Source: a virus. Taken from it: DNA of 30,180 nt. Below the pieces are notes generated by a model, which saw only the letters and a program-made list of their open reading frames with translations, was not told the DNA's origin and made no database searches. The translations under genes and the position numbers were made by a program. Below are positions 5,740-30,040 of this stretch, one piece after another. The stretch spans positions 1 through 30,180 of the IMG/VR virus record IMGVR_UViG_3300013119_001059. The stretch is one strand, 5' to 3'. Each line of letters begins with the position of its first letter. Positions within the stretch are counted from its first letter, which is position 1.

Positions 5740-7098
5740 TTAGAGGGTGTTGATCGTCCAGTCAGCTCCCTCGAATTCTTCCATGTTGGCCGGGTCGCCC
5801 TTGACCGTCACGACACTATCCGTCGCTCCGGAGATTTCTGCAACCGAGTCGATCTCGGTGACGCCCTTGCCCTCAGACCCCCCAACAGCCGTCAGGTCGA
5901 AGTAGACTACCGACCCGACCGCCGCGCCGGCGGCGATGGTGACGCGCCCCTTCCGGCTGCTGCGCGCGAAGCCATCGGTGAAGGTCACCTCCAGCACCTG
6001 CTGCACCGCTGGCGACGTGACCACCTCCACCCACAGCCGCGGGCTGTACTGGTTACGGCTGTAGCTTGGTGGTGACGGCGCCGCCCAGTCGAGGCCGAAC
6101 GTCCCGAACGTGACGTCGGTTCCCAGCCCAGCGCTTTCAAGCTGGTCCACGGTGCTGTCGGCGCTGTAGGCGAGGATGTTGTTCTCGTTGTCCTTCCACC
6201 CGCTCTCGAAGTCCTCGTAGTCCTTGGCGCCCACGTGGCTCGCCATCTCCAGCTGTGCTCCGGTGAAGCGCCACTCCTCTGCCACCCCATCCCAGTACTT
6301 GGCAGCGAAGCTGTGGTTGAGGTAGTCCAGCCGGTTGCCGGGCAGCATCCAGTTGGCCTCGAAGTTCTCAACGCTGGCGCTCTCGGACTGTAAGTCCGAC
6401 CAGTCGTCGAGGTGCGCCACGTGGCCATCGGGCCAGTCCACGGCGTTGGTGGTGCCTTGCACAGTGGTAGTCGCCAAGCCAAGAGCTGTGGCCACGTCGC
6501 CCGCGTTGACCTTGAGTGTGGCGCTGGCGCCGAAGGCGGTGCCGCGGATCACCAGCGCAGTGCTGCTTCTCTCGATGGCAGTAGCGCCGACCAGATCGCG
6601 CTTCAGGACACGCACCATCTCCTTGACGGTGGCTGCCCCGATGTTGACGAAGTCGGCTGTGGCCAGCGTGATGGTCTTGGTGGCGCCGCCGTCGACGCTG
6701 TACACCAGCGTCTGACCGTTGCTCAGCGCCCACGGGGCTGCATTGGTGCTGTTGACCTCGGGGGCAGTCTTGCCCATGCCGTACTGCTTGCCCTGCTCGT
6801 CGACGTCGTTGTCGAACAGGTCCGGGACGGACCAGCCGCTCTCGAAGTGCTCAGCGGTTAGAGCGGCAATGAGCGCCCACTCCAGCTGTGTGTCAGGATC
6901 TGTATAGCTGAAGATGCTCTCCTCGTTGGTGACAAGCCCGCCCTTGAGATCTGTCCACTGCTCCTCGAAGTCCTCAACCGTCTCGAAGTCGGTCCCGTCC
7001 ACCTCAGCCCAGTCCCGCCCTCCAGACACCTCTGCCAGCGTCCAGCTGGCTGCTGAACCCTTGGTGGTTCCTGCTGTCCCGAAGTCTTCGTTGGCCAT
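5740..7098 (-). CDS. Baseplate-region protein with FExxW repeats
   Basis: A 452-residue protein of unrecognised family. The ATG at 7098 (MANEDFGTAG) follows GCGAGAAG and the upstream stop at 7109; the in-frame ATG at 7131 overlaps the gpJ gene and is less likely. Four copies of an acidic-aromatic motif stand at residues about 43 (DFEEQW), 84 (HFESGW), 245 (NFEANW) and 296 (DFESGW), with a degenerate EFEGADW near the C-terminus. Between the second and third, residues about 126-215 form a beta-rich module that closely resembles one inside the tail sheath of this phage (VDGG, TIT, DFVNIGAAT, LGLAT). Residues 355-450 look like another beta domain. Position after gpJ suggests an outer baseplate protein. 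Confidence 0.7.
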   Translation of the reverse strand: MANEDFGTAGTTKGSAASWTLAEVSGGRDWAEVDGTDFETVEDFEEQWTDLKGGLVTNEESIFSYTDPDTQLEWALIAALTAEHFESGWSVPDLFDNDVDEQGKQYGMGKTAPEVNSTNAAPWALSNGQTLVYSVDGGATKTITLATADFVNIGAATVKEMVRVLKRDLVGATAIERSSTALVIRGTAFGASATLKVNAGDVATALGLATTTVQGTTNAVDWPDGHVAHLDDWSDLQSESASVENFEANWMLPGNRLDYLNHSFAAKYWDGVAEEWRFTGAQLEMASHVGAKDYEDFESGWKDNENNILAYSADSTVDQLESAGLGTDVTFGTFGLDWAAPSPPSYSRNQYSPRLWVEVVTSPAVQQVLEVTFTDGFARSSRKGRVTIAAGAAVGSVVYFDLTAVGGSEGKGVTEIDSVAEISGATDSVVTVKGDPANMEEFEGADWTINTL

Positions 7099-7108
7099 GG
7101 TCTTCTCG

Positions 7109-8647
7109 CTAGATGGTGGCCCCCGTGTCAACGTCGACGATGGACGTGGTGCCCAGCCGAGGGAACTGCTTGTTCTGCATCACCACGGACTGGCGCAGCG
7201 TGTTGAGCAACAACCCCGTTGTGCTCTCGCTGACCTTGCGCACGCCAGTGGTGTCGCGGATGACATTGAAGACGTCGCTCCAGACCACCTCAGCGACGAT
7301 GGTGCCAGCCGCGTTTTTCAGATTGGCACCGAAGTCGATGTCGGGGTTCGCCACACCCGCGCTGAGCTGCGCCGCGAAGAAGTCAGCCAGGTTGGTCCGG
7401 ATGGCGTTGCCGACCGTAGTCGAGTTGACGCCCTGCTCCAGGTACACGCGGGCGGCGATGTTGATGTCCTTGAAGACAGCAGCTCGCGCCTCCCAGGTGA
7501 ACGTGAGCATCGGTGGCTTGCTGGTGTTGATGTAGGTCTCGATGTTGGTCAGCAGCGTAGTGGACGGCGCCGCCGGCGCGATGCGCCCAGAGGCCAGCGT
7601 GGTGCCGCGAGCCACCACGTACATGATGCCGGAGTTCTCCGCGATGGAGCTGCCCTCGTTGCTGGTCAGCATCAGCGCCCGCGCCACGCCGCTGACGGAC
7701 TGCCCGGCGTCCTCGAAGTCTTGCTTGCTGACGGTGCGTGTCAGGGTGCGCAGCGAGGCTGGAAGCTGGGCGCGGACTTCCTCGATGCCCATCCTGTCGG
7801 TGCCGCCGGAGCAGGCTGCGGCGTTGGTCACCTCCAAATACACGTTGGCGTTGAGGTCGTCGACCAGGGTGACGTCCATGACGTTGATCATGTCCGCTTC
7901 GACGTTGCCTGCGACACCGCCTCCGGTCTTGTAGCTGACGCTGATCTCGCCTGAGGGAATCTCCCCGTTCACGCCATTGCCGAACTGGATGTAGCCGCGG
8001 TCCTCCTGGTCTACTGACACCACAAACACCTTCGAGGTGGAAGTGGACCCAAGGAAGGTGGTCTGCTCAGTGTACGGTGCACCGGCCACGGTCACGGTGG
8101 CGCTGCTGTCGAGGAACGGGGTGTAGTCCAGCGGCACGCGCTGGTTGGGAGTCCCATCCGCTTGGAACAGCTGTAGATGGGCTTCAGCCTGCTCCACCGC
8201 CACGTCCTTGGTGAGCTCTCCGATGGCGACGGTCTGTAACGCGGTGGTTCGGAAGTACACCGGGTCCTCTGGATCATCCGTTCGCACCACGGTGCCGACA
8301 GGGATGGGAATGGCGCGGGTGTGCGCTGATGCTAGCGAGAAGGTCACCGTGCCTGTGGCACTTGCAGCACCCTGGATGGTGTAGTTGAGCAGCCGCGCCA
8401 GCCGGATGGCTGAGATGCGCTGGGACATGGTCCCAAGAAAGCACTCCGCGGCTTGGTTGTCCTGATAGAAGCCGATCACGTCGCCGACGTGTGCCATCAT
8501 TTCCAGCAGGATGTTACCAAAGGTCGCCTCGTTGAAGTCCGTCCAGTTGCTGTACACACCCTGAATCAGGTCCTGCAACCGGAAGCGCAGGCTGGCGAAG
8601 TCGCGGTCGGTGTAGTCCAGATTCCGCTGCAGTGTTGACGTGGTCAT
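7109..8647 (-). CDS. Baseplate J-like wedge protein
   Basis: A 512-residue member of the baseplate J family (P2 gpJ, related to T4 gp6), a wedge component that helps form the ring around the hub. The N-terminus DYTDRDFASLRFRLQDL, then FGNILLEMMAHVGDVIGFY and SQRISAIRLARLLNY, is the classic start of this family. It is followed by IPIPVGTVV and, mid-protein, RGYIQFGNGVNGEIP and GNVEADMIN, also family hallmarks. The start at 8647 (MTTSTLQRNL) overlaps the gp25-like gene by four bases (ATGA), indicating coupled translation. A longer frame to 8764 adds a basic, low-quality N-terminus that shadows the upstream gene. Length is in the normal range for larger gpJ proteins. Confidence 0.93.
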   Translation of the reverse strand: MTTSTLQRNLDYTDRDFASLRFRLQDLIQGVYSNWTDFNEATFGNILLEMMAHVGDVIGFYQDNQAAECFLGTMSQRISAIRLARLLNYTIQGAASATGTVTFSLASAHTRAIPIPVGTVVRTDDPEDPVYFRTTALQTVAIGELTKDVAVEQAEAHLQLFQADGTPNQRVPLDYTPFLDSSATVTVAGAPYTEQTTFLGSTSTSKVFVVSVDQEDRGYIQFGNGVNGEIPSGEISVSYKTGGGVAGNVEADMINVMDVTLVDDLNANVYLEVTNAAACSGGTDRMGIEEVRAQLPASLRTLTRTVSKQDFEDAGQSVSGVARALMLTSNEGSSIAENSGIMYVVARGTTLASGRIAPAAPSTTLLTNIETYINTSKPPMLTFTWEARAAVFKDINIAARVYLEQGVNSTTVGNAIRTNLADFFAAQLSAGVANPDIDFGANLKNAAGTIVAEVVWSDVFNVIRDTTGVRKVSESTTGLLLNTLRQSVVMQNKQFPRLGTTSIVDVDTGATI

Positions 8648-9060: not shown

Positions 9061-9920
9061 CAGTCGAGCCCCGTTGCTGGATTATTGAAAGTGGGCCAGT
9101 CGATATCTGGTGCGGTGAACTGCATGCCGAGGATGGCCTTACCCGCCGACTCGACGTAGAGGATAGCCTCTCGGCAGACCTGCAGCAGCAGCAGCAGGTT
9201 TCTCAGGTCCGGCCAGTCCGTAGACGCGTCGAAATCACCGATGGCGTCCTGGGCCGTAGTGATCTTCTGCGTGACCGAGTACAGCTTGCCCGCAGGCGTG
9301 TCGGGGTCGTTCTTGTTGCCTGGCAGGAAGGACTCGATGATCATCATCTGGTTGATGAAGCTCTGCACGATGCCTGCGATCAAGCCTGCGATGATGAGGA
9401 TGTTGGCCGACTCCTGCTTGAGGTTAGCCTGCGCGCAGTTACCGATCTCCACCGTGTACGGGTCGGGGTCGAGCAGTGCTGCCTTGATCAGCGTGATCTG
9501 CGCGTCGATGGCGTCCAGCAGGCTGATGATGTCGTCGATCATGCTGCGCAGGGCGACCATGATGTCCACCAGTAGCTTGACGTAGGCTATCGGGGGGAAC
9601 AGTGCGGCCAAGTCCGCGAGCGCTGCGGTCAGCTTCTCGAGGCAGTTGATCACCGGCATGGGTGATAGCTCCTCGACTGCGTCCTTGACCGCCCGGGCGC
9701 ACTTCTCCAGCGCCAAGATCACCGCCAAGATCTTGAGGATGGTCCAGAAGGGCGCAGCAGCCGGCAGCGCGGCATTCAGTAACCGGAAGGCGTGCGTCGA
9801 GACTCTGGGCACCTCGTTGAGTGAGCTGGCGAAGGCTTTCAGCGAGCCCATGCCAGGGATGGTGATCTCCAGGTCTTCTGGGCGTAGAGGAAGCTCAACA
9901 CATGTGACTGGCGTAGCCAT
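9060..9920 (-). CDS. Unknown hydrophobic helical baseplate-core protein
   Basis: A 286-residue protein that I do not recognise. It is mainly helical and unusually hydrophobic: AAAPFWTILKILAVILALEKC, LFPPIAYVKLLVDIMVAL, MIDDIISLLDAIDAQITLIK and ANILIIAGLIAGIVQSFIN. These could be membrane-spanning or buried in a helical bundle; charged residues within several of them favour a bundle with one or two genuinely hydrophobic stretches. The C-terminus ends TAPDIDWPTFNNPATGLD. It is wedged between the CIS-tube-like gene and gp25 with one-base overlaps on both sides, so it is almost certainly expressed with the hub and wedge. A role in the baseplate core or in inner-membrane contact during injection is possible but unproven. 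Confidence 0.75.
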   Translation of the reverse strand: MATPVTCVELPLRPEDLEITIPGMGSLKAFASSLNEVPRVSTHAFRLLNAALPAAAPFWTILKILAVILALEKCARAVKDAVEELSPMPVINCLEKLTAALADLAALFPPIAYVKLLVDIMVALRSMIDDIISLLDAIDAQITLIKAALLDPDPYTVEIGNCAQANLKQESANILIIAGLIAGIVQSFINQMMIIESFLPGNKNDPDTPAGKLYSVTQKITTAQDAIGDFDASTDWPDLRNLLLLLQVCREAILYVESAGKAILGMQFTAPDIDWPTFNNPATGLD

Positions 9921-10546
9921 TACTTCGTCTTCCCCGTTTGCGCATTGTAGCCCAAGCCCTGCGCCATGACCTTGGGAGTCACACGCAGCTGTGTCGCAGT
10001 TTCCAAGAATGTCAGCGCGAGCTTATACTCTAGCGGGTAGCCCGACCGGTTGAAACGCTCATAGGTGATATCCAGCTGTGTCACCACGCCGATGAAGGCC
10101 AAGCTTGCATTTGGCCAGATGATCTCCACACGGGGCGGCGAGCGCCTGGGGCCTGTCGGCACCGTGAGCGACTGGAAGAAGTTGCGGTACTGCAGTGGGT
10201 TGATCTTGTCAGACTCCCACCCCTTGGCAATGAAGATGCCGTAGGCGACCCACAGCTCCATCGAGATCTCGCGCGCGGCAGTGCGGGTGTACTGCACGAT
10301 CTCCTGCGAAAGCCCAATCACCGGCCGCCTGGCATACTGCGGCGCGACCGACTCGCGAAACGACTCGGGGTTGAGCAGTGCGTGTAGCTCGCGCACGGAG
10401 CCGATGCGCTTCGCATTGCGCAGCCGGAACAGCACCAGGTCAGACCTCGCGATGCGGCCGAAGGGGTCGCCCTCGCCCGCCGGCGGGTCGAGAGCCAACT
10501 CGTCCTTGCCGTAGTATGGCGGTACATATTTGCCAGTTGTGGTCAT
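9920..10546 (-). CDS. CIS-tube/Afp7-like baseplate hub protein
   Basis: A 208-residue protein resembling the tube/hub-adaptor proteins of contractile injection systems (Afp7/Pvc7). Visible hallmarks are ALLNPESFRESVAPQY near residue 55, a middle strand ISMELWVAYGIF, then RSPPRVEIIWPNASLAFIGV and QLDITYERFNRSGYPLEYKLALTF. In the family, NPx-S, PPxVxFxWG, GVVxxVxxxxTxFxxxGxPxRA and a final strand occur in this order; here the WG is WP and PxRA is PLEY. Afp7-type proteins often carry a LysM domain at their end; none is visible here, while a separate LysM gene lies at 12484-12828. The start overlaps the gpV gene by four bases (ATGA). Confidence 0.65.
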   Translation of the reverse strand: MTTTGKYVPPYYGKDELALDPPAGEGDPFGRIARSDLVLFRLRNAKRIGSVRELHALLNPESFRESVAPQYARRPVIGLSQEIVQYTRTAAREISMELWVAYGIFIAKGWESDKINPLQYRNFFQSLTVPTGPRRSPPRVEIIWPNASLAFIGVVTQLDITYERFNRSGYPLEYKLALTFLETATQLRVTPKVMAQGLGYNAQTGKTK

Positions 10547-12837: not shown

Positions 12838-15800
12838 CTACTTGAACATGTTGAGGAGCCAGAGGCCACCGCCGCCTTCTGGTGGAGCATCGGGGCCGCC
12901 GGATTCGGTGGTCTTGCCTGAGACTGCTGGGCTGTTTGACATCTTTCGCAGATGCCCCTCCATGCTCTTGAGCACCTTGCTGTCGTCCGCCCCTCTGTTG
13001 TTCATTGCTGTCAGCGCATGCACCGCCGGGTCATCGCTCTCGGCTGCGGCGCGCTCACGCTTCGTCATGGTGGCCTTCTTGATCACACCATGCAGCGGGC
13101 TGAGGTCAACACCCGTGCCTGTGACACCAATGCGACTCAGTGAGTTGACCAGCTTCTTCTCCTCGGTGAGGTTGGTCGCTGGCTGCATTACCCGTGCACG
13201 CGTATTCTTCATGCGGGCTGTGCTCTTGGTGATCTGCTCCTGCAGATTTCGCTGGTGACTCAGAAGCCGCTGCAGCTCTGCCACAGGTGCCTTCGTGAGC
13301 CTGGCTAGGTTGCTTTTCAGCTCCTTACCCTCATACGCCTCAGCCGACGGCCAGCCTAATACACCCTCACCTATGTCAGCCATGAAACGCCGCGCTAAAC
13401 TCTGCGAAGTCCCTGGATCTGCTACGTCTTTGCTGCCCCACTCATACGGCTTCGCCGATATTGCGTAAGCCTTGGCTAGCTTTTTCCTCGAATGCCACTT
13501 TGCCGGTGCACTTCCGGTTCTACCCCACACCTGCGGCCCCAAGTGCGTGCGGTGTTTATCCGGGCCGTAGGAGCCATACCACTTGCGCCGCGCTGCCCGA
13601 GCCTCAAGGGCAGCCTTCATCTCTGCGTGTTGTATACTGTCGCGGGCGTCAGATATCTCCCTTGCCAAGCTCTTCAAACGGGCCTTTGCTGTCCTGATTA
13701 CCACCCTGTCTCGCCCCGTCTCGACATCGGCCGCCTGACCCAGCTGCTTCTTCTCGGCAGCCAGCTTCTTGTCCAGCATCGCGTTGTACTTCTCCGTCTG
13801 GATCCCCAACGCATGGCCAGCTGCAGCGGTCACCGACGAATTTTTGTGGAAGTTGTTGAGCCCCTTGCCAATAGAATCCAGTGCGGCCTTGAACGTCTTG
13901 GACTCGTTGGTTGTCAACTTCAGCCCCTGGCTCAACAGGGCGAAAGCAATCTGCGCCTTCTTCAGCGTATCACTGTCCACCCGGCCGCGGGCCTCGAACA
14001 CACTCTTGATCACGCCGAACTGCTGACGCGCGAGTGCGGTCTTGGTGATGCCGCCGCCCTCTTTACCCAGCGAGATGGCGGCCTCTAGCTTCGCACCCAT
14101 GAGATCCAACGCCTTGTGCGAGAGCATCGGCGCTTTCTGCTTCATGGTCTTGACCCACCGGTCGACAGCCTCGTCCAAGCTGCTTGCGGTACGCGCCAGG
14201 TCCTTCGACGCGCCGCCGAAGCCGCCGAGCACCTTGAGGAAGTCGCTGTTGCCACGCTTGGCGTCGGCCATCATCCGGTTGATGTCTGCGTCCATGCCGC
14301 CCTGTCCAAACCGGCCCCAGATGGACTCCATCGCGTACATGAGCGCCTCGACGGCAACGAAGGCGATGATCAAGGGGCCAGTTGAACGCGCCAGGACCCG
14401 CACCGCCGCAGTCAGCCCGTAGGCCATGCGCGTGGCAAGCGTCATAGCGCCTGCCCATGCTCTGGTGCTGACAGCAGCACCTCGCATGACATGCGCCTGT
14501 GTAGCTATGGCCACTGTGCTGCTTGCTGTCGACCCTCGTAGAAACTGCATCGCCAGCCCGATGGCCACCTGCGATGCCTTGAATGCCATCGCCAAGCCAG
14601 TGGCCATGACCCAGGTCCCCGCCAGGACGATGATCCCGCCCGCGAGCTTGCGCATTATCATGGCCGTGGTGCTGGTGCCGGAGAACAGCGACTGCAGCTT
14701 GTTCACCAGATCCGTGATCGTGTTGATCATCAACGCCAGCGGTGGCACCACATCCTGCGACACAGTCATAGCCAGCTTCATCAACGCGTCGCGAAGCAGC
14801 GTGAACTGGTTCTCCGTCGTCATCATGAACTCGGTGGTGACGCCCTTGAGCAAGCCAGGGGACTTCATACCCTTGTCCTGCAGATACGCCAGCGCATCAC
14901 CCATGCGTACGATCTTACCCTCGTCGGTGGGGATGCCTGCCATCAGCTGCTGCATCAGCGAGATCCACGGCTTGCCGGCGCGCTTGCCGAAGGCCTTGTC
15001 AATCTCGTGCATGAACCCGCGCCACGTCTGCTCGTTACCCTCTGCAGCACGGGCTAGGTCCATCATGATATCGGAGATGGGACGCAGGCGCTCGCCGGTG
15101 TGAATCACAACGCCAAGCCGCTCCTCGAGCCGGCTGTAGATCCTGGGGTCGGACATCCGCAGCATACCCGTCAGCCAGCCGGTGGCCGCAGACGAGGAGC
15201 TGCGGAAGCCGCGGACGGACAGTGCGAACAGCGGCAGCAGGTCCTTGAAGCCCTTGATGCCGGTCTGCCCCGCAACGGTTGTGACCAACCCCAGCTTCTT
15301 CATGCCCTCAGCCATCTCCGAGACCTGGATGCCGGTGCCACGCTGCATGGCCACCAGATAGTCCAGCGCCTCGGCCGCCTCCCTCGTGCGCAGGTTGAAC
15401 CCACCGATGATCTGCGAAGCGAGCTGTGTTGACTTGGCGACGTTGCCCTCCATGAAGACGTGAGCCATCGACAGGGTGGGAATCAGAGTAGCGGCGGAGC
15501 CCTCAACATCGCGTAGGGCCAGGTTCAGCTTGGTTGCCGCGCTGACCGCCTCGGTCGGAGTGAAGGGGGTGACCTTGGCTGCATCGAACGAAGCACGGCG
15601 CAAGCGCTCGAGGCTGTCCGCGCCAAGACCAGTGGCAGCCCGCATGCGCCCCATCTCGTGCTCCAGGTCCACCGCGGGCTTGATGACTGCCGTCATGGCA
15701 GCTGCTGCCTTCCGGGCCACGATCAAGGCGTTGTACGCCCCGGCCAGCGCCCGGAGCCCGCCGGCTGCTTGCCGCGCAGACTTGTTCGTCTCCTTCATGG

Positions 15801-15906
15801 TTTTGTTCGAGCCCTTCATGGCTCGATTGCCCGCCTGCATTCCCTTCACCACCCCCTTGTCGGTGAAGGTCCAGACGAAACCATATTCGAAGACGGTGCG
15901 GGGCAT
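12838..15906 (-). CDS. Tape measure protein
   Basis: A 1022-residue protein with the typical tape measure layout. The N-terminus is Ala/Lys-rich helix (AMKGSNKTMKETNKSAR), then residues about 80-200 show EHEMGRMRAATGLGADSLERL and EAVSAATKLNLALRDVEGSA, the conserved minor-tail core region. Two hydrophobic segments stand near residues 420-442 (LAGGIIVLAGTWVMATGLAM) and 510-527 (GPLIIAFVAVEALMYAM). The C-terminal half is basic helical sequence. It follows the chaperone pair directly and starts three bases after the -1 extension stop. It sets tail length; at about 1.5 angstrom per residue the tail would be near 150 nm. No lytic transglycosylase or peptidase domain is apparent. Confidence 0.93.
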   Translation of the reverse strand: MPRTVFEYGFVWTFTDKGVVKGMQAGNRAMKGSNKTMKETNKSARQAAGGLRALAGAYNALIVARKAAAAMTAVIKPAVDLEHEMGRMRAATGLGADSLERLRRASFDAAKVTPFTPTEAVSAATKLNLALRDVEGSAATLIPTLSMAHVFMEGNVAKSTQLASQIIGGFNLRTREAAEALDYLVAMQRGTGIQVSEMAEGMKKLGLVTTVAGQTGIKGFKDLLPLFALSVRGFRSSSSAATGWLTGMLRMSDPRIYSRLEERLGVVIHTGERLRPISDIMMDLARAAEGNEQTWRGFMHEIDKAFGKRAGKPWISLMQQLMAGIPTDEGKIVRMGDALAYLQDKGMKSPGLLKGVTTEFMMTTENQFTLLRDALMKLAMTVSQDVVPPLALMINTITDLVNKLQSLFSGTSTTAMIMRKLAGGIIVLAGTWVMATGLAMAFKASQVAIGLAMQFLRGSTASSTVAIATQAHVMRGAAVSTRAWAGAMTLATRMAYGLTAAVRVLARSTGPLIIAFVAVEALMYAMESIWGRFGQGGMDADINRMMADAKRGNSDFLKVLGGFGGASKDLARTASSLDEAVDRWVKTMKQKAPMLSHKALDLMGAKLEAAISLGKEGGGITKTALARQQFGVIKSVFEARGRVDSDTLKKAQIAFALLSQGLKLTTNESKTFKAALDSIGKGLNNFHKNSSVTAAAGHALGIQTEKYNAMLDKKLAAEKKQLGQAADVETGRDRVVIRTAKARLKSLAREISDARDSIQHAEMKAALEARAARRKWYGSYGPDKHRTHLGPQVWGRTGSAPAKWHSRKKLAKAYAISAKPYEWGSKDVADPGTSQSLARRFMADIGEGVLGWPSAEAYEGKELKSNLARLTKAPVAELQRLLSHQRNLQEQITKSTARMKNTRARVMQPATNLTEEKKLVNSLSRIGVTGTGVDLSPLHGVIKKATMTKRERAAAESDDPAVHALTAMNNRGADDSKVLKSMEGHLRKMSNSPAVSGKTTESGGPDAPPEGGGGLWLLNMFK

Positions 15907-15908
15907 TA

Positions 15909-16082
15909 CTACCCTCTTATGCCAGATCGGGCGCGGCGGTGCGCCTGCGCTAGGTCGTCGTTCGCTTTCTCAAGAAACTCGGCCAGTCTGTCGCGCCGGC
16001 TCACGTCAAACTCCTGAAGCTCACTCCACGACACGTTCACAGAGATGCTTTCAGGGGACTGCGCGATGAGCCGAAAAGCCAT
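15909..16082 (-). CDS. Tail chaperone T-part, reached by -1 frameshift or TAATG restart
   Basis: The 57-residue region MAFRLIAQSPESISVNVSWS to the stop at 15909 is the part of the -1 frame downstream of the zero-frame stop. The same frame is open upstream to 16322, but only residues after the slippery site at 16148-16154 look like protein (LLEPEEIYPIPSTADRD); before it the frame is Arg/Pro/Gly-rich shadow. Frameshifting would give a 308-residue fusion: 229 residues of zero frame then 79 of -1. Independent initiation at the ATG overlapping the zero-frame TAA (TAATG, AGGGA upstream) is also possible. Position just before the tape measure matches gpT of lambda and E' of P2. The long form would bind tape measure or tube subunits. 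Confidence 0.7.
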   Translation of the reverse strand: MAFRLIAQSPESISVNVSWSELQEFDVSRRDRLAEFLEKANDDLAQAHRRARSGIRG

Positions 16083-16834
16083 TAGGTCCCTGTCCGCCGT
16101 CGACGGGATCGGGTAAATCTCTTCCGGCTCGAGAAGAACCCCGCCTCGAAAGGGAGGGGAATGTCGAACTGCTGGCCGCAGAACGTGCACTCCATCGGCA
16201 GCATGGTGTCCACGCCACCGCCCAGGTCGTCCACCTGGTCCCACAGGTCGTCGCCGATCCGCGCCGGCAGATCCTCCACCGCGGCGAGGATCTCGTCCGG
16301 GTCGTCGATCTCGCCGAGGCACACCACGCGCCGCGCCAGCTGCAGCGTCAGCAGCCGGTGCTCTTCGGACTTGGGGATGGCGGCGAGGTGCTCCTCGTCG
16401 ACTCCTGTCGCCATGCGCAGCAGGACCTCCGTCTCGTCCAGCAGCTGGGTCTTGATGGGCTGGTTGGTGCGCACCGCCTGCTTGCCCTTCTCAGACACAG
16501 GGGCTACGTCGAGTACGTCCAGCCCCACGGTGTGCTTGAAGTTGCGCTCACACGCTGGGCAGTCGGCCCTGAAGGTGTACTCCGGGCCGTAGGAGAGGAT
16601 GCGCAGCTGGATCAGCGCGAACGTCCTGTCGGCCATCAGCACGCGCTCCCACTGTGGCTCTTCGCCTTCGTAGGGGCCCATGTCGAGGGTGCGCAGCCAG
16701 CAGGTCTGTAGCAGCTCGGTGATGAGGCGGCCCGACTGGGCCAGCTTGCGGTTCGCGAAGAGCTCTTCGTCTTTGACCCGCATCAAGCGGACCACCCCGC
16801 GCAAACCGGAGGGGCAGGTGATTTCGGTTTCCAT
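16082..16834 (-). CDS. Tail assembly chaperone, zero-frame product (G-part)
   Basis: A 250-residue protein with two CxxC pairs: residues 92/95 (RADCPACERNF) and 216/219 (MECTFCGQQFD), suggesting one zinc-binding site. A helical N-terminus (LFANRKLAQSGRLITELLQTC) and the RTFALIQLRILSYGPEY segment resemble T4-type gp26/baseplate-assembly proteins found before tape measure genes. The last 21 residues (SSRKRFTRSRRRRTGT at the end) are Arg-rich and unlike the rest, as expected if they are read only when frameshifting fails. AGGAGA lies seven bases ahead of the ATG. The gene follows the tail tube after a 119-base hairpin-rich gap. The chaperone role is inferred from position and the slippery site. 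Confidence 0.82.
   Translation of the reverse strand: METEITCPSGLRGVVRLMRVKDEELFANRKLAQSGRLITELLQTCWLRTLDMGPYEGEEPQWERVLMADRTFALIQLRILSYGPEYTFRADCPACERNFKHTVGLDVLDVAPVSEKGKQAVRTNQPIKTQLLDETEVLLRMATGVDEEHLAAIPKSEEHRLLTLQLARRVVCLGEIDDPDEILAAVEDLPARIGDDLWDQVDDLGGGVDTMLPMECTFCGQQFDIPLPFEAGFFSSRKRFTRSRRRRTGT
16119..16154 (-). promoter_or_regulatory. Programmed -1 ribosomal frameshift site
   Basis: Reading the minus strand, the heptamer C CCT TTC occupies 16154-16148 and fits X XXY YYZ exactly in the chaperone frame (codons CCT, TTC preceded by a C). After slipping to CCC TTT both tRNAs can re-pair. The -1 frame then stays open for 79 codons to 15909. A possible stem follows with a nine-base spacer: TTCTTC at 16138-16133 pairing with GAAGAG at 16124-16119 across an eight-base loop. 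It is short and A/T-containing, so its strength is uncertain. Protein-like composition switches from zero to -1 frame at the heptamer. Confidence 0.8.
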
Positions 16835-16953: not shown

Positions 16954-17451
16954 TTACAGGACCTTGCGGAAGCTGTCGAAGACCAGCTCCAGGGACTCGA
17001 TGATCACCTCGTCGGTGCTGGCGTCCCAGTCGCCCGCCACGTACTTGCGCGGCCAGCAGTTCCGGAGGCCCCAGACCCGCCGCTTGGTCACGCCGTTGCG
17101 GTCCAGCTGGATGACCTTGACCTCCTTCATGTAGACCGCGAGGTTGGCGCCGACGCCGCGCTGCAGCGACCCGGCGCCTCCGGCGATGTAGGCGACCTGC
17201 CTCATCCAGTCGTAGAACTTGGACGACGTGGACGCCCCTCGCTCGAGGGTCACGTTGGGGACGGTGGCGCGCCCGGGGATCTTCCACGGGATCATGTTGC
17301 CGCCCTCGTGGTACGAGATCTCGGCCAGCTCGTAGCTTAGCTCGCTCATCTTCTGGAAGGTGGCAGACCAGCCACCAGCCACCTGGATCAGGAACTGGTG
17401 CTTGGGGAACAGCTCCCGAACGCCGCCGGTCACCAGTTTGATGTCACCCAT
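16954..17451 (-). CDS. Tail tube protein (T4 gp19-like)
   Basis: A 165-residue protein of the T4 gp19/tail tube family. Typical features are the N-terminal PKHQFLIQVAGGWSATFQ strand-turn, SYELAEISYHEGGN, then KIPGRATVPNVTLERGA followed by FYDWMRQV, and the ending VIIESLELVFDSFRKV. The GxxxVPNVTLERG plus later E-L-x-L-x-F-D are hallmarks of contractile tail tubes. Hexamers of this protein form the inner tube inside the sheath. GGAGGAAATCC precedes the ATG, a strong site fitting high expression. Length is standard for the family. It lies directly after the sheath gene, the conserved order. Confidence 0.95.
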   Translation of the reverse strand: MGDIKLVTGGVRELFPKHQFLIQVAGGWSATFQKMSELSYELAEISYHEGGNMIPWKIPGRATVPNVTLERGASTSSKFYDWMRQVAYIAGGAGSLQRGVGANLAVYMKEVKVIQLDRNGVTKRRVWGLRNCWPRKYVAGDWDASTDEVIIESLELVFDSFRKVL

Positions 17452-17515: not shown

Positions 17516-19825
17516 CTAGATCTGACCGAACAGCTCCTCAGACAGCGCACGCGTGTCCTTGGTGACCTTGATCACGATGAACTCGGCCGGGGTGTTGGTC
17601 GCCAGCCCCACCCGCATCACCACCTTGCCCTCGCGGACCACGGACGGCGGGTTCAGGGCGTCGGACACATCCACGAAGAAGGCCGTGTCAGGGTCGCGGG
17701 TGGCGAAAGCGCCCTTCTGCATCCACTCGTAGAGCAGCGCATAGACCTGGCTCTCGATGTCCTCGCGCAGGTCGGGGGTGTTGTTTCGGTGCCGCACCCA
17801 CTGCAGGCCCGCCTCGAGCAGCCGCTCGATGTGGCTGACGCCGCGGCGCTCGCCCACGCTGGGGAAGTTGCCGTCGCCCTTGAGCGTCCGCGCGCCGTCC
17901 ACGAAGACTCCGTAGCCCTTCATGAAGGTGATCGGGTTGATGCGATCTGGGAACACCAGGTTCCGGTGGGCCTCCAGCCGCGCCTTGTGGTTGTTGCCCG
18001 GGGTGCCGTCCTCGTCCTCCAGCGCCACGACGCCCACCGGCTTTCCAGCCTCCACCCCGGCCGGCTGGTAGAACGGGCCCTCGTCCTCGCCGGAGTCGCG
18101 GGCCGCCATGATGCCGGCCACCACGCCCGACGGGGCCATGTTGATGCTCTTGGTCGCCTTGCCATAGACCGTGTTGGACGGGTTGATGATCTTGACCCAG
18201 GGCCAGTACATGGCGCCGTTCTCGAAGTAGGCGGTGTTGGACAGACCGGCCTTGAAGGTCTTGGCCAGCGCGCCCGTGCTGCGGTCCTCCGACGTGTCCA
18301 GGATGGCGAAGACCATCCCCTGCCGCTCGTCTGCGTGCCCGCAGTAGTACAGCAGCTTGTCCATGGTGGTCGCCGTTGGCCGATCCGGGGCGCACATCAG
18401 CGTGATGTCCGACACGTTGTCGAATGCATACACGCCGGACTCGGCGCCCTTGTAGCCGGTGAAGTCGGTATCGGTCAGGCCGGTCAGGCCGTCGCCGCCG
18501 CCGGTGAGCGCGGCGCCGGACGTGTCAGCCGGTCGGCGGTTGGTCGCAGACCCCGCGGCGGCCTGGTCGGTCACTGCGATGTAGTCCGAGCCCTTGGACG
18601 CGTCGTTGATGATGGTCTCGGCGAAGCGCTCCGCGGTGGCGGTGGTGGCCGACGTGGCCATGGTCAGGTTGGTCCAGGTCTCAAGCACCACGGTGCCATC
18701 GAGGACCTGCAGGTTGAACTCCGACGCGAGCCCGCTGCTCGCGGCGTAGATCCTGGGCTTGATGGTGTTGATGTACGCGCCCGGGGTCTTGCCGTCCACC
18801 TTGAGGGTGTTCACCGCGGAGCCGGCGCTGCCGTTCACGATGGTGGTGGACAGCCCCAGGATGGTCTCCGCCGACGAGGTCGCCTTGACCTCCACGCTGG
18901 CGCTGGCACCGGTGGCCACCGTGGTGATCACGATCTTGCTGGCGGTGAACGTCACGCTCACGCCGCCGCCGCCGGTGAAAGCGGCAGTCAAGATCGTGTC
19001 CATCTCGGCGGTGGTGACCGCGTCGATGTCGGAGATGCCCGCGGTGCTGGCGCCAGACACCTGCGCCGTGGCGAAGCCCAGCGCCGTGTTGGCGGTGCCG
19101 CCGGTCACCTCGATCTTGGACCCGGTGCCCTTGCGGTCGGAGGTGATGGTGACCTTGGTGCCGCTGCTGGTCACCGTGGCCGTCGCACCGACGATCTCGT
19201 TGTTGATGGCCTGCGCCACCTCCTCCGCCGTGGCGGCGCCGATGTCGACGAACTCCGCGGTGTCGAAGGTGATGGTCTGCGCGGTGGTCTCGGCGTCCAC
19301 CTTGACCGTCAAGGTCTGCTGGTCGACGAGCACGTAGGTCTCGGCGGTAGCGTTCTCGCGGGCTGCAGCCGTCGCGTCGAAGGTCGCGGTGTCGTCCCCC
19401 GCACCGTCGATGCTCGCGATCAGCGTGTCGTTGGGGGTCATCTTCCACGGCCCCGCCACGGTGCCGGTCAGCACAGCCGGTGACGCAGCCCCTGCTGCGG
19501 TCTGCAGCGTCTGTGTGCCGGTGGTGGCGTCGGACGTGGCCACAGATGCGCTATGGGTGCCGTAGTGGGCCACCCGGCTGACGTAGCACTGCTTGCCGCC
19601 GTTGAGGAAGAAGGCGCGCACTGCCAGCGCGCACTGCCGCCCGCTGATGAACCCGCCGTACACCTGCTCGAACTCCTCGTAGGAGGTAACCAGCTGGGGC
19701 GTGCGCAGGGGTCCTCGCTCCGTGACACCCATAATGCCCAGCACAGCTGTGGCATATGTGGGGAACGTACGAAGCTTGGGCTCCTCCTCACTGATGGTAA
19801 TCTTTGAAGAAAGCAGATCCGCCAT
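17516..19825 (-). CDS. Tail sheath protein
   Basis: A 769-residue sheath. The N-terminus (YATAVLGIMGVTERGP, PQLVTSYEEFEQVYG, FFLNGGKQCYVSRV) and C-terminus (RRGVSHIERLLEAGLQWVRH, then NTPDLREDIESQVYALLYEW, FFVDVSDALNPPSVV and EFIVIKVTKDTR) are diagnostic for the phage sheath family. Also visible are WPWVKIINP and INPITFMKGYGVFVDGARTL. Length exceeds P2 (about 396) and T4 (659); residues about 117-335 form an inserted beta-rich region containing a module that recurs, in part, twice (VDAETTAQTITF to ALGFATAQ, then a shorter copy ending ILGLSTTIV). The sheath contracts to drive the tube through the envelope. GGAGGCC sits before the ATG. A 707-codon frame on the opposite strand is a shadow. Confidence 0.96.
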   Translation of the reverse strand: MADLLSSKITISEEEPKLRTFPTYATAVLGIMGVTERGPLRTPQLVTSYEEFEQVYGGFISGRQCALAVRAFFLNGGKQCYVSRVAHYGTHSASVATSDATTGTQTLQTAAGAASPAVLTGTVAGPWKMTPNDTLIASIDGAGDDTATFDATAAARENATAETYVLVDQQTLTVKVDAETTAQTITFDTAEFVDIGAATAEEVAQAINNEIVGATATVTSSGTKVTITSDRKGTGSKIEVTGGTANTALGFATAQVSGASTAGISDIDAVTTAEMDTILTAAFTGGGGVSVTFTASKIVITTVATGASASVEVKATSSAETILGLSTTIVNGSAGSAVNTLKVDGKTPGAYINTIKPRIYAASSGLASEFNLQVLDGTVVLETWTNLTMATSATTATAERFAETIINDASKGSDYIAVTDQAAAGSATNRRPADTSGAALTGGGDGLTGLTDTDFTGYKGAESGVYAFDNVSDITLMCAPDRPTATTMDKLLYYCGHADERQGMVFAILDTSEDRSTGALAKTFKAGLSNTAYFENGAMYWPWVKIINPSNTVYGKATKSINMAPSGVVAGIMAARDSGEDEGPFYQPAGVEAGKPVGVVALEDEDGTPGNNHKARLEAHRNLVFPDRINPITFMKGYGVFVDGARTLKGDGNFPSVGERRGVSHIERLLEAGLQWVRHRNNTPDLREDIESQVYALLYEWMQKGAFATRDPDTAFFVDVSDALNPPSVVREGKVVMRVGLATNTPAEFIVIKVTKDTRALSEELFGQI

Positions 19826-26940: not shown

Positions 26941-29682
26941 CTAGTTCAGCTCCATGGCGAGCGCGGTGCCCTCGATGCTCCAGCCCGTCAAGCGGCCGGC
27001 CTTGATGGCAGCCCACAGGGCGTCGTCCAGCACTCGGGCGGCGAGCAGCCACGTGCCCTCCGTGACGTGCTGACCCTCCATGTCGAAGTCGACGGGTGCC
27101 AGGTAGGACTCGAGGATCTTGATCTTGGCCTCTGGCAGAGTCCGCTCGTGCATCAGGCCCAAGACCGGCGAGAACTCCATAAAGAAGTGAGCTGCCTTAC
27201 GAACCTCCTCCTCGCTGTAGATGTCCCCCTGGGAGTCCACTTCGTTCGGCACCAGCACCACACCCAGAACGTAGCGCTCCTCCTCATCCTCATCATCCAC
27301 CGGTGGCTTGGTCTCGTATTTGAGCAGCTGAATCTGGGTGTCTTGCAGCAGCGTCTTCGGTAGATCACTCGGCAGCTCCGGCATCTCCATCTTCTGAACC
27401 GAGGCCAGCAGCCGGCGCGCCTTCGCCGCTGTCTTGTCCTTCACGGACTGCGGCAGCTTGCTCTGCGGGATGCGGGACAGGGCATTCCGCAAGTGCGGCG
27501 CGTCCAGCTTGCCGTTGTGGTCCCGCACGGGGAAGTGCCGCAGGGCCCTCGGCACGGTCTTGCCCTCCGAGTCCTTCTTACCACCGGACTCGATGTGCAG
27601 GAATGCGCTGTCCGGCAAGTCGTTGATGTACTTGGTGCTCCACTTGATCTTGGAGACAGTTTCCGCCACGTCCTCATCGGTGGCGTCCTCGATCAGCTCC
27701 TCCATGTAGTACTTGGTGACCACCTTGCCGATGGCACCCCCGACAAACATGAGCTGCTCCCCGGTCACGAAGCCGGAGGCCATCAGCTCATCCCGGCGCT
27801 GAGTCCGCTTGGCCACATCGCTCTCACGCCAGTACTGCATCTCCCGGGGCACCAGCTTCTTCACCCCCACCGGCAACCCCGACCACCCTTGTGGCGGCAC
27901 GTCAGCCTCGGCCTTGAGCACATTAGGTAACAGGTCGTCTGTCAGCGTGGCGGTCCAGTAGGGATCCTCCTCACCCTGCTTCTCCACCAGCAGCCGGCCG
28001 AAGAGCTGCTTATCCCGCTCCAAGAAGTACTCATGGCTGCTCTTGGTGATGAGCCCGCAGGTCACAGCCGGCCGCGCCACCGCCAACATCGCACCCACTT
28101 CGTCGTCGGCTGCTCCGGTCTCACCCGGCGCGAAGGACTCCTCCTCGACATCCAGCCACGGGTTGGGCTGCGCACCCTTGCACACGCAGAACACCCGCTC
28201 GGGCGCCAGCAACGCCTTGATGTGCGAGCTGCCGGTGACGGTGAAGGCCTTGGCCAGCCCGCGAAGTCCCTCAAGGTCTAGCGGCGGCATGTCCGCCGCC
28301 GCATGTTGACAAGCCAGCGCGTAGCTCACCGTCTCGTCGCCCACCTCCATCCGCATGTCAACGTGCAGCCTGTTGCCGCGGGCATGTAGGTGCAACACAC
28401 CTCGACCCGGGCGGTCCTCGCCCACAAGCCGCGGGGCGCCCTTGTTGATAGGCTCCACCCCGGCTGCCAGCAACTCGACCTCGCTGCAGCGGGCCTCGCT
28501 GCGCTTGGCGATCTGGTTATACAGGGTGGCAAGGCGGTCCTCAACCTCATCAGGCGGCAGCTCGTCCGGAGCGCTCTGGGCGTCCTCCAAGCTAGGCAGA
28601 TCTGGGCGCCGCACAGCCTCCTCTACAGTAAACTCCACCCCGCACTTTGCGCCCGCTTCTTTGAGCAGGCGCTGCGCGTCCTGCGCCATCTGCTCGGTCA
28701 GAGCACCGAGCGTCGGCGCTCTCGAAAGCGGCCCGTCGAGTAGCTCTTGTGCTCGCGAGTGCAGCGGCTGCAACATCTCCACCGGCAGCCCTTTGATCAC
28801 ATCCTCCGCCACGTCTACGAAGAACACCCATGGGGTGGGATCGGGCCCGACGGCCTTCTCCAACGACAACATGGTGCGCACGCTCTTCAGCAGCTGCTCG
28901 GCATGTGCAGCCTGCCGGCAACGTGCCGGCAGCATGCCTGCCAGCGACTCCACACTGCCAGCGAGGACAGCCCCCAACTCGAACGGTGGGGTGGTGCTCT
29001 CCATGCGCGGCAGCGGGTCCTCGTCGACGGCTTTGAGCACCCCGGCGCTCTCAGCATGCACCATCTCCAGCAGCGGCTCCAGATGCGCCAGGTCGATACG
29101 GGCCTGCCCACGCACCTCCAAAAGCTTTTCCAGTCTGGCAGCCACAGCCGGCAGCTGCTGCAGGGCAACTCCTGTGGCTGAGTGCGCCAGCGACAGGATG
29201 CTGACGCCCTCACCGGATATGCTCTGGACGAAGCCACTGTCCTTGGTGACATCCTCCTCGTATCGTGGTGGCGGCAGCTCCTTGCTGACAGCCAGCAGCC
29301 GCGGCGACGGCCATGCTTGCGCTTGCTTCACCACGTTGCAGTAGAGCCGGCGCTGTTTGGGCCAACGCTCCTTCCGCATCTCGTCGGTCATGCCGTGCTT
29401 CTTGACGGATAGCCGGAACTCAGGGATGGACATGGGTCGGGGCTCGTCCAGCTGGACGGTGCCGTAGGCCATGTCCTGGTCCGTGAGCAGGAGCGAGCCG
29501 CTGCAGGCCAGCGGCTCGCGCGAGACCACAAGGGTGATCTCGCCCTTGCACACCCGCTCGGGCATACCTGGGGGAAGCATCAGCCTGTTCGCGGGCGTCT
29601 CCGCCGCTTGCTGCGCGGCCGCCTGCAGCATCCTGTTCGCGCGCTGCAGCGCCTCCCGTACTTCTCTCAGCTCATCGGACAT
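26941..29682 (-). CDS. Multi-domain prohead protease fusion (XkdF-like, LigD-PE-like)
   Basis: A 913-residue protein from the ATG at 29682 (GAGGAG just upstream; a longer start at 29751 overlaps the previous gene). Residues 55-125 contain TDQDMAYGTVQLDEPRPMSI and MRKERWPKQRRLYCNVV. Residues about 425-565 resemble the LigD 3'-phosphoesterase fold: LHLHARGNRLHVDMRMEV gives His433, His440, Asp442 and Arg444, with HEYFLERD at 550. Residues 684-760 carry YINDLPDSAFLHIESGGKKD and RALRHFPVRDHNGKLD, DAPHLRNALSRIPQ, a module known from phage head proteins. Residues 803-908 are the XkdF/S78-type protease: VPNEVDSQGDIYSEEEVRKA, LMHE with His845, and GWSIEG with Ser902. It would cleave scaffold and capsid precursors. 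Whether the phosphoesterase-like part is active is unknown. Confidence 0.78.
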   Translation of the reverse strand: MSDELREVREALQRANRMLQAAAQQAAETPANRLMLPPGMPERVCKGEITLVVSREPLACSGSLLLTDQDMAYGTVQLDEPRPMSIPEFRLSVKKHGMTDEMRKERWPKQRRLYCNVVKQAQAWPSPRLLAVSKELPPPRYEEDVTKDSGFVQSISGEGVSILSLAHSATGVALQQLPAVAARLEKLLEVRGQARIDLAHLEPLLEMVHAESAGVLKAVDEDPLPRMESTTPPFELGAVLAGSVESLAGMLPARCRQAAHAEQLLKSVRTMLSLEKAVGPDPTPWVFFVDVAEDVIKGLPVEMLQPLHSRAQELLDGPLSRAPTLGALTEQMAQDAQRLLKEAGAKCGVEFTVEEAVRRPDLPSLEDAQSAPDELPPDEVEDRLATLYNQIAKRSEARCSEVELLAAGVEPINKGAPRLVGEDRPGRGVLHLHARGNRLHVDMRMEVGDETVSYALACQHAAADMPPLDLEGLRGLAKAFTVTGSSHIKALLAPERVFCVCKGAQPNPWLDVEEESFAPGETGAADDEVGAMLAVARPAVTCGLITKSSHEYFLERDKQLFGRLLVEKQGEEDPYWTATLTDDLLPNVLKAEADVPPQGWSGLPVGVKKLVPREMQYWRESDVAKRTQRRDELMASGFVTGEQLMFVGGAIGKVVTKYYMEELIEDATDEDVAETVSKIKWSTKYINDLPDSAFLHIESGGKKDSEGKTVPRALRHFPVRDHNGKLDAPHLRNALSRIPQSKLPQSVKDKTAAKARRLLASVQKMEMPELPSDLPKTLLQDTQIQLLKYETKPPVDDEDEEERYVLGVVLVPNEVDSQGDIYSEEEVRKAAHFFMEFSPVLGLMHERTLPEAKIKILESYLAPVDFDMEGQHVTEGTWLLAARVLDDALWAAIKAGRLTGWSIEGTALAMELN

Positions 29683-29692
29683 GTGCTCCTCG

Positions 29693-30040
29693 CTATGTTG
29701 GGGTCCAGATGCTGGCCTCCGCGTTGGGCTCAGGGTCGAAGTCCACCCCATCGATGGCGCAGCGTAGCGCGTGCGGCATCAGGTCTAGCGTGCGCTCGAG
29801 GCCGAAGCCGAGGTCGCCGCGCGCCCGCCGGAACCAGGTCTCACACATCTTGAAGCGGCGCTTTGTTTCTGCCTGTGTGACCTTGACCTCTCTGTCAGGC
29901 TGCCGCTTCTGGTCCTCACCGAAGCTGCGCAGGATCGTGTCGTGCAGAACCTGCGCCACGCGAGCCATGTCCTGCTTGTTACTCAGCAGCTGCGCAAACG
30001 CCGTCTGCGACGAAGCTCCTGACGTGATGATGTGGGCCAT
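29693..30040 (-). CDS. Small unknown head-block protein
   Basis: A 115-residue protein starting MAHIITSGASSQTAFAQLLS, with AGGAGAA five bases ahead of the ATG. It is helical and basic in the middle (QDMARVAQVLHDTILRSF, QAETKRRFKMCETWFRR) and ends DFDPEPNAEASIWTPT. No family is recognised. The frame is also open upstream to the right edge, but the good Shine-Dalgarno favours this start. The protease-fusion start lies 11 bases downstream of its stop, so the two are probably co-translated and its job is likely in head assembly. Confidence 0.65.
   Translation of the reverse strand: MAHIITSGASSQTAFAQLLSNKQDMARVAQVLHDTILRSFGEDQKRQPDREVKVTQAETKRRFKMCETWFRRARGDLGFGLERTLDLMPHALRCAIDGVDFDPEPNAEASIWTPT

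Follow-up and report, generated by a model that had tools for sequence, protein, structure and literature searches.

Reading frames at the tail chaperone locus

The question raised by this locus is whether a tail assembly chaperone (TAC) gene, lying next to the gene of the tape measure protein, is decoded into one protein or into two. The window (the whole stretch of DNA that was analysed, an IMG/VR virus record of 30,180 bases) carries on its minus strand, in this order, genes for head proteins, the sheath, a T4 gp19-like tube, a TAC of 250 aa, the tape measure protein and the baseplate; judged by its sheath gene, the phage has a contractile tail. The features needed in the following are:

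17516..19825, minus strand: tail sheath protein, 769 aa (phrog_15814, E 1.1e-148; phrog_23 tail sheath, E 7.8e-32)
16954..17451, minus strand: tail tube protein, T4 gp19-like, upstream of the TAC gene (PF06841, E 2e-28)
16082..16834, minus strand: TAC-N, zero-frame tail assembly chaperone, 250 aa, T4 gp26/gp51-like (PF12322, phrog_150)
16550..16561, minus strand: first CxxC pair, C92 and C95, invariant in 8 diverse homologues
16178..16189, minus strand: second CxxC pair, C216 and C219, nine residues ahead of the slip codons, invariant in 8 diverse homologues
16148..16154, minus strand: predicted C CCT TTC slippery heptamer; on a −1 slip the P-site CCT would become CCC and the A-site TTC would become TTT
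16082..16147, minus strand: two-frame stretch, comprising the Arg-rich TAC-N tail and the start of the −1 extension; ends in TAATG
15909..16148, minus strand: predicted −1 extension (TAC-C domain), 79 aa past the slip plus the stop codon at 15911..15909
12838..15906, minus strand: tape measure protein gene, 1022 aa, next downstream (PF10145, E 1.1e-11; phrog_28 and others, tail length tape measure)

The heptamer CCCTTTC was located at 16154..16148 on the minus strand, with CCT as codon 228 and TTC as codon 229 of the ORF 16834..16082, and C CCT TTC in the TAC zero frame is an exact X XXY YYZ. After the heptamer the zero frame reads PFEAGFFSSRKRFTRSRRRRTGT and terminates with a TAA stop at 16084..16082; the −1 frame begins with PFRGGVLLEPEEIYPIPS and meets its first stop at 15911..15909, thus ending three bases ahead of the tape measure ATG at 15906. 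From these frames, a −1 fusion of 308 residues was computed. The first-pass annotation of this DNA had claimed the exact heptamer in the chaperone frame, the −1 direction with a frame running to the tape measure gene, the 308-residue product and a zero-frame partner of the CxxC-CxxC type, all of which were confirmed.

CCCTTTC occurs once in the window, against 2.6 occurrences expected from shuffles, so that the heptamer by itself is not rare. In-frame X XXY YYZ sites numbered 13 in the 21 predicted genes; of these, the TAC site alone has A/T in its YYZ part, and at no other X XXY YYZ in the stretch are both frames open. Going by the sequences compared below, it is conservation, and not the bare heptamer, that sets this site above chance.

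Other minus-strand genes of the window were noted in passing. In the 936-aa protein at 26941-29751, a match to XkdF-type serine proteases (PF14550) is confined to residues 819-933, the first 800 residues being without any match. In the 463-aa protein at 5740-7131, residues 122-229 match positions 151-257 of the sheath family phrog_15814, which indicates a domain common to this protein and the tail sheath. The product of 9920-10546, among the phage baseplate genes, matches CIS_tube (PF19266, E 1.9e-16), a family known from contractile injection systems.

Collection of homologues and conservation of the slip site

Over 200 loci were gathered by scanning viral contigs and genomes for the tube, the sheath and the TAC. 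Scanning the viral contigs with the single window TAC protein gave no relatives, and the tail tube and sheath proteins were used as queries in its place; an alignment of 8 TAC sequences was too diverse to scan with, and a first genome scan with the window TAC subgroup gave no matches. The judged set comprised 102 GC-rich homologues after duplicates and truncated ends had been dropped, with L194 and L201 excluded as misaligned fragments. C CCT TTN was found in frame at the aligned column in 96 of these 102 homologues, and the heptamer was present in 47 of 51 clusters (<70% aa identity).

Such constancy might be attributed to the Leu-Pro-Phe/Leu peptide or to codon bias, and the −1 ORF to high GC content: Pro228 hardly varies within the TAC family, GC-rich DNA often contains long alternative ORFs, and the +1 control frames reached 100 codons in some loci. 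CCT, however, is the rarest or second rarest Pro codon, used at 37 of 435 positions (8.5%) upstream in the same genes, yet it is the Pro codon of the site in 47 of 49 clusters (binomial P about 5e-48, a value that assumes independent clusters, which is not fully the case; with clusters formed at 50%, 30 of 32, P about 4e-29). Other Pro columns contain mixed codons, the top codon accounting for 31-64%, and the codons CCT, CTC and TTC of the site take ranks 1-3 for synonymous constancy among 69 conserved columns. As the base after CCCTTT varies between C, T, A and G, and the residue is Phe or Leu, what is retained is the nucleotide pattern rather than the peptide. Beyond the zero-frame stop, the −1 frame moreover has protein-type divergence and a conserved domain (next section). 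In an alignment that does not consist of near-identical sequences, this divergence and the CCT statistics refuted the attribution to peptide, codon bias or GC content, which is now scarcely credible, and the comparison demonstrates selection for the heptamer.

The heptamer is absent from six GC-rich homologues, which belong to four clusters (L093, L116, L135 and L013-L015). In all six, the zero frame contains T TTT TTN 15-18 bases (5-6 codons) further downstream, with the −1 frame open beyond it. The first-pass annotation had named as a refuting case homologues in which the heptamer is lost by synonymous changes while both frames persist. Taken literally, L135, which retains Leu-Pro-Phe with other codons (CTT CCC TTC), and L093, which reads TTG CCA CTA at the site, are such cases, but both gained T TTT TTN 5-6 codons downstream into the same −1 frame, so that these exceptions support the relocation of a functional site. 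CCCTTT and T TTT TTN were found together in only 2 of 98 heptamer loci (L165 and L177), and this near-exclusive distribution is the trace that would be expected of a functional site relocating. L165 and L177, which are Myxococcota loci, have C CCT TTC as well as T TTT TTC in their zero frame and are possible intermediates of this relocation.

Coding character of the −1 frame

The −1 extension measures 73-128 codons in all judgeable clusters except L192; the conservation of heptamer and −1 frame at homologous loci, which the first-pass annotation had suggested comparing, was confirmed. At L192 the heptamer is present, but the −1 frame is open for just 25 codons and the zero frame extends far beyond its usual stop, possibly owing to an indel or an assembly error in the MAG contig. 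Beyond the zero-frame stop, positions 1/2/3 of the −1 codons diverge by 0.214/0.138/0.415 (642 pairs), which is the pattern of a selected protein; in the two-frame overlap of the homologues it was even over the codon positions (0.285/0.22/0.237). The −1 domain follows the pattern F-L-Y-HGGSGL-S-DVLEL-R. AF2 modelling of the −1 extension alone, using an alignment of 28 sequences, gave a mean pLDDT of 87.9 with helices at residues 19-30, 43-48 and 51-79, and the extension is accordingly modelled as a helical domain. Selection on the −1 frame as protein is evident from these substitution patterns.

The best viral fold matches of the extension were weak, Mu FS-gp41 at E 0.48 and the TAC of phage Loki at E 0.64, neither being significant alone. 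PDB sequence and fold searches gave nothing significant, with the HK97 TAC (2ob9) at rank 13 (E 2.0), and hhalign of the extension against lambda T gave nothing. Against the single gp51 sequence, hhalign aligned the right region (216-245), but at a probability of 0.1%, which does not show homology.

A −1 frame under selection could also be expressed as a separate small gene by translational coupling, without any frameshift. At the end of TAC-N, the zero-frame stop overlaps a −1-frame ATG (16083..16081) in the sequence TAATG, with AGGGA five bases upstream, and some close relatives (L009, L105) have TGATG. Among the homologues, however, no more than 20 of 48 clusters have ATG, GTG or TTG within 30 bases of the zero-frame stop; in 15 of 48, no start codon is so placed that a separate gene of at least 45 codons would result. 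The −1 frame is open and protein-like all the way back to the heptamer, and coupling explains neither the invariant CCT nor the replacement heptamers. While coupling is thus quite improbable, one gene very probably gives rise to two TACs by a programmed −1 frameshift at C CCT TTC.

AT-rich relatives with the extension in another frame

The AT-rich relatives are mainly marine contigs, together with the cultured Microcystis phage Mel-JY01 and the Flavobacterium immuto phages. Their zero frame ends with F-F-W-P within few codons, and the extension is located in the +1 (= −2) frame. The zero-frame TAC is closed by a near-invariant TTTTTTTGGCCT (L021 3735-3761, L054, L057, L077 2315-2343 and others), and the slip stretch TTTTTTTGG was found in 12 of 14 AT-rich clusters; the second CxxC pair is missing from several of these relatives. 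Decoding in this class may proceed by a +1 or −2 frameshift, or by polymerase slippage.

Comparison of the −1 extension of the window group with the +1-frame extension of the AT-rich group by hhalign resulted in 96.7% at E 3.8e-10, from which the extensions of the GC-rich and AT-rich groups are judged homologous. In the two groups, different frames entered at almost the same position lead to one and the same domain, which argues strongly for the fusion as the product under selection, and selection for the fused architecture is shown by this comparison across frames.

Slippage during transcription, with the polymerase adding or skipping a base, would produce the same fusion in place of a ribosomal slip, and runs of seven or eight T in some relatives (the TTTTTTTGG class, L093 and L116) make it possible there. 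The window site, with runs of just three C and three T, is too short for known polymerase slippage, and the X XXY YYZ phase is retained in 98 loci; for the window, a transcriptional origin is therefore highly improbable, and the ribosomal −1 frameshift is retained as the reading of C CCT TTC.

In the deposited phage records inspected, the extension was missing or fragmented in 5 of 5. For Flavobacterium phage immuto, Bacillus phage SP-15 and Microcystis phage Mel-JY01 it is unannotated or split into hypothetical proteins of 36-78 aa. Unannotated or split TAC extensions lie at:

L078, 2213-2458
L079, 2235-2460
L077, 2327-2548

Identity and fold of the zero-frame chaperone

The window TAC matched PF12322 with 24.5 bits, exactly the Pfam cut-off, and its relatives scored higher (49.6 and 53.4 bits); against phrog_150 it reached E 3.5e-10. 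T4 gp26 and T4 gp51 each match PF12322 and phrog_150, as the window TAC does. The AF2 model of the zero-frame TAC had a mean pLDDT of 94.7; values of 95 give way to 77 and 56 just past residue ~230, so that the modelled zero-frame fold ends at the heptamer. Foldseek searches of BFVD with this model returned 62 matches at E <= 0.001 (best E 3e-16), and the named ones were mostly T4-type baseplate hub proteins, gp26 of Aeromonas phage 25 among them.

T4 gp26 and gp51 have been named hub assembly chaperones (PMC3004832). Vladimirov et al. 2022, as quoted in PMC10274946 and PMC12846349, assigned both as tail assembly chaperones of T4-like phages and, by the same quotations, described short and long TAC forms in T4 as arising from separate gene copies. 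With the PF12322 and phrog_150 matches, the fold of the hub proteins and this assignment, the naming of the gene as a tail chaperone holds.

Relation to known systems and hosts

The lambda heptamer, GGGAAAG, is other than that of the window. As in lambda gpG/gpGT, the ORFs overlap just ahead of the tape measure gene, a −1 X XXY YYZ slip is placed near the end of the short frame, and a short form is accompanied by a long form with a C-terminal domain, the window forms being predicted; in contrast to lambda, two CxxC pairs are present in the window TAC and the tail is contractile, and no sequence relation was detected between the protein families. The lambda TAC frameshift (Xu 2004) was reviewed in Atkins 2016, by which −1, −2 and +1 variants among phages were already known and T4 was listed as an exception ('except T4') (PMC5009743). 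Frameshifting TACs in T4-like phages were then described by Vladimirov 2022, as reported in PMC12846349 and PMC10274946. In phage Adele (Vandenendeviridae/Andersonviridae), comparative evidence likewise indicates a −1 frameshift in a myophage TAC ahead of the tape measure gene, there at a conserved GTTTTT instead of CCCTTTN and in other phage families (PMC12846349). The window TAC and the T4-like TACs are of the same protein family (PF12322, phrog_150), with short and long forms, which in the window are predicted. Other T4-like groups reportedly do frameshift, a statement ascribed to Vladimirov, Gautam and Davidson 2022. Unlike the T4 forms, which are separate genes, those of the window would result from a slip in one gene, by which the window falls among the frameshifting T4-like groups.

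Among eukaryotic RNA viruses, C_CCU_UUN is familiar as a slip heptamer (West Nile virus, giardiavirus). The heptamer class and the −1 direction are the same as in the window; eukaryotic ribosomes and a downstream pseudoknot are involved there, whereas no downstream structure was found here. The search of the literature on CCCTTT(C)/CCCUUU frameshifting found no TAC with this heptamer, a provisional result given incomplete coverage. The earlier remark that the site is not a usual textbook case therefore stands for the C CCT TTN site of a TAC, of which no report was found, but goes too far in other respects, as frameshifting T4-like TACs had been described and C_CCU_UUN was known in eukaryotic viruses. 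Frameshifted TACs and T4-like TACs as such are already known; as far as searched, and provisionally, the near-invariant C CCT TTN slip site of a TAC, the mutually exclusive occurrence of T TTT TTN in its place and the homology of the extensions across frames are new.

Homologues 67-100% identical to the A4 query were found in genomes of Myxococcus, Corallococcus, Archangium and other Myxococcota, and the window virion structural protein (phrog_1623) was present in 5 of 5 Myxococcota genomes tested. By these matches, the relatives include Myxococcota prophages; the window TAC is about 40% identical to the Myxococcota group. Two copies of the TAC locus were observed in Myxococcus xanthus AM003 (L163, L168) and three in Myxococcales SKS1.bin3 (L183, L186, L187), several copies per genome representing multiple related prophages.

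Proposed decoding and its implications

In the proposed mechanism, most ribosomes would finish the zero frame and release the 250-aa short form, TAC-N. In a minority, the P-site tRNA-Pro and the A-site tRNA-Phe would slip back together by one base onto CCC TTT, after which 79 residues would be added in the −1 frame to give the 308-aa long form, TAC-NC. Downstream RNA structure gave no signal relative to dinucleotide shuffles (mean z −0.1 to −0.3, 49 clusters), and an upstream SD-like element was borderline across homologues (P 0.05) and absent in the window. A stimulatory element is not required in all known cases of frameshifting.

If the system works as lambda gpG/gpGT does, the tape measure protein would be coated by the short and the long form alike, and the long form, which is the rarer one, would bring in tail tube subunits through its additional C-terminal domain; the short:long ratio set by the slip would then matter in tail assembly. 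For this role, in which the long form delivers tube protein to the tape measure, lambda is the model (PMC5009743). Whereas selection was shown by comparison, it is inferred that ribosomes slip here, how often they do so, in what short:long ratio the forms result and how the two share the work of assembly.

For the family as a whole, a reading that we favour with some reserve is that the same two-form output has been kept under changed decoding: by a near-invariant C CCT TTN −1 site in GC-rich phages, many of them of Myxococcota; by a T TTT TTN −1 site 5-6 codons downstream where the former was lost; in AT-rich phages, by shifting +1 or −2 at TTTTTTTGG; and by gene duplication without a shift in T4, the short cassette working without conserved RNA structure. 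The finding would add a large unannotated group, contractile-tail phages and Myxococcota prophages, that decodes two chaperones per gene, and would extend frameshifting to the T4 gp26/gp51 family, formerly counted as an exception. It would be of direct use to annotators, as the TAC extension is missing or fragmented in deposited phage records, and it would make slip-site evolution testable, with relocation and change of direction inside one protein family.
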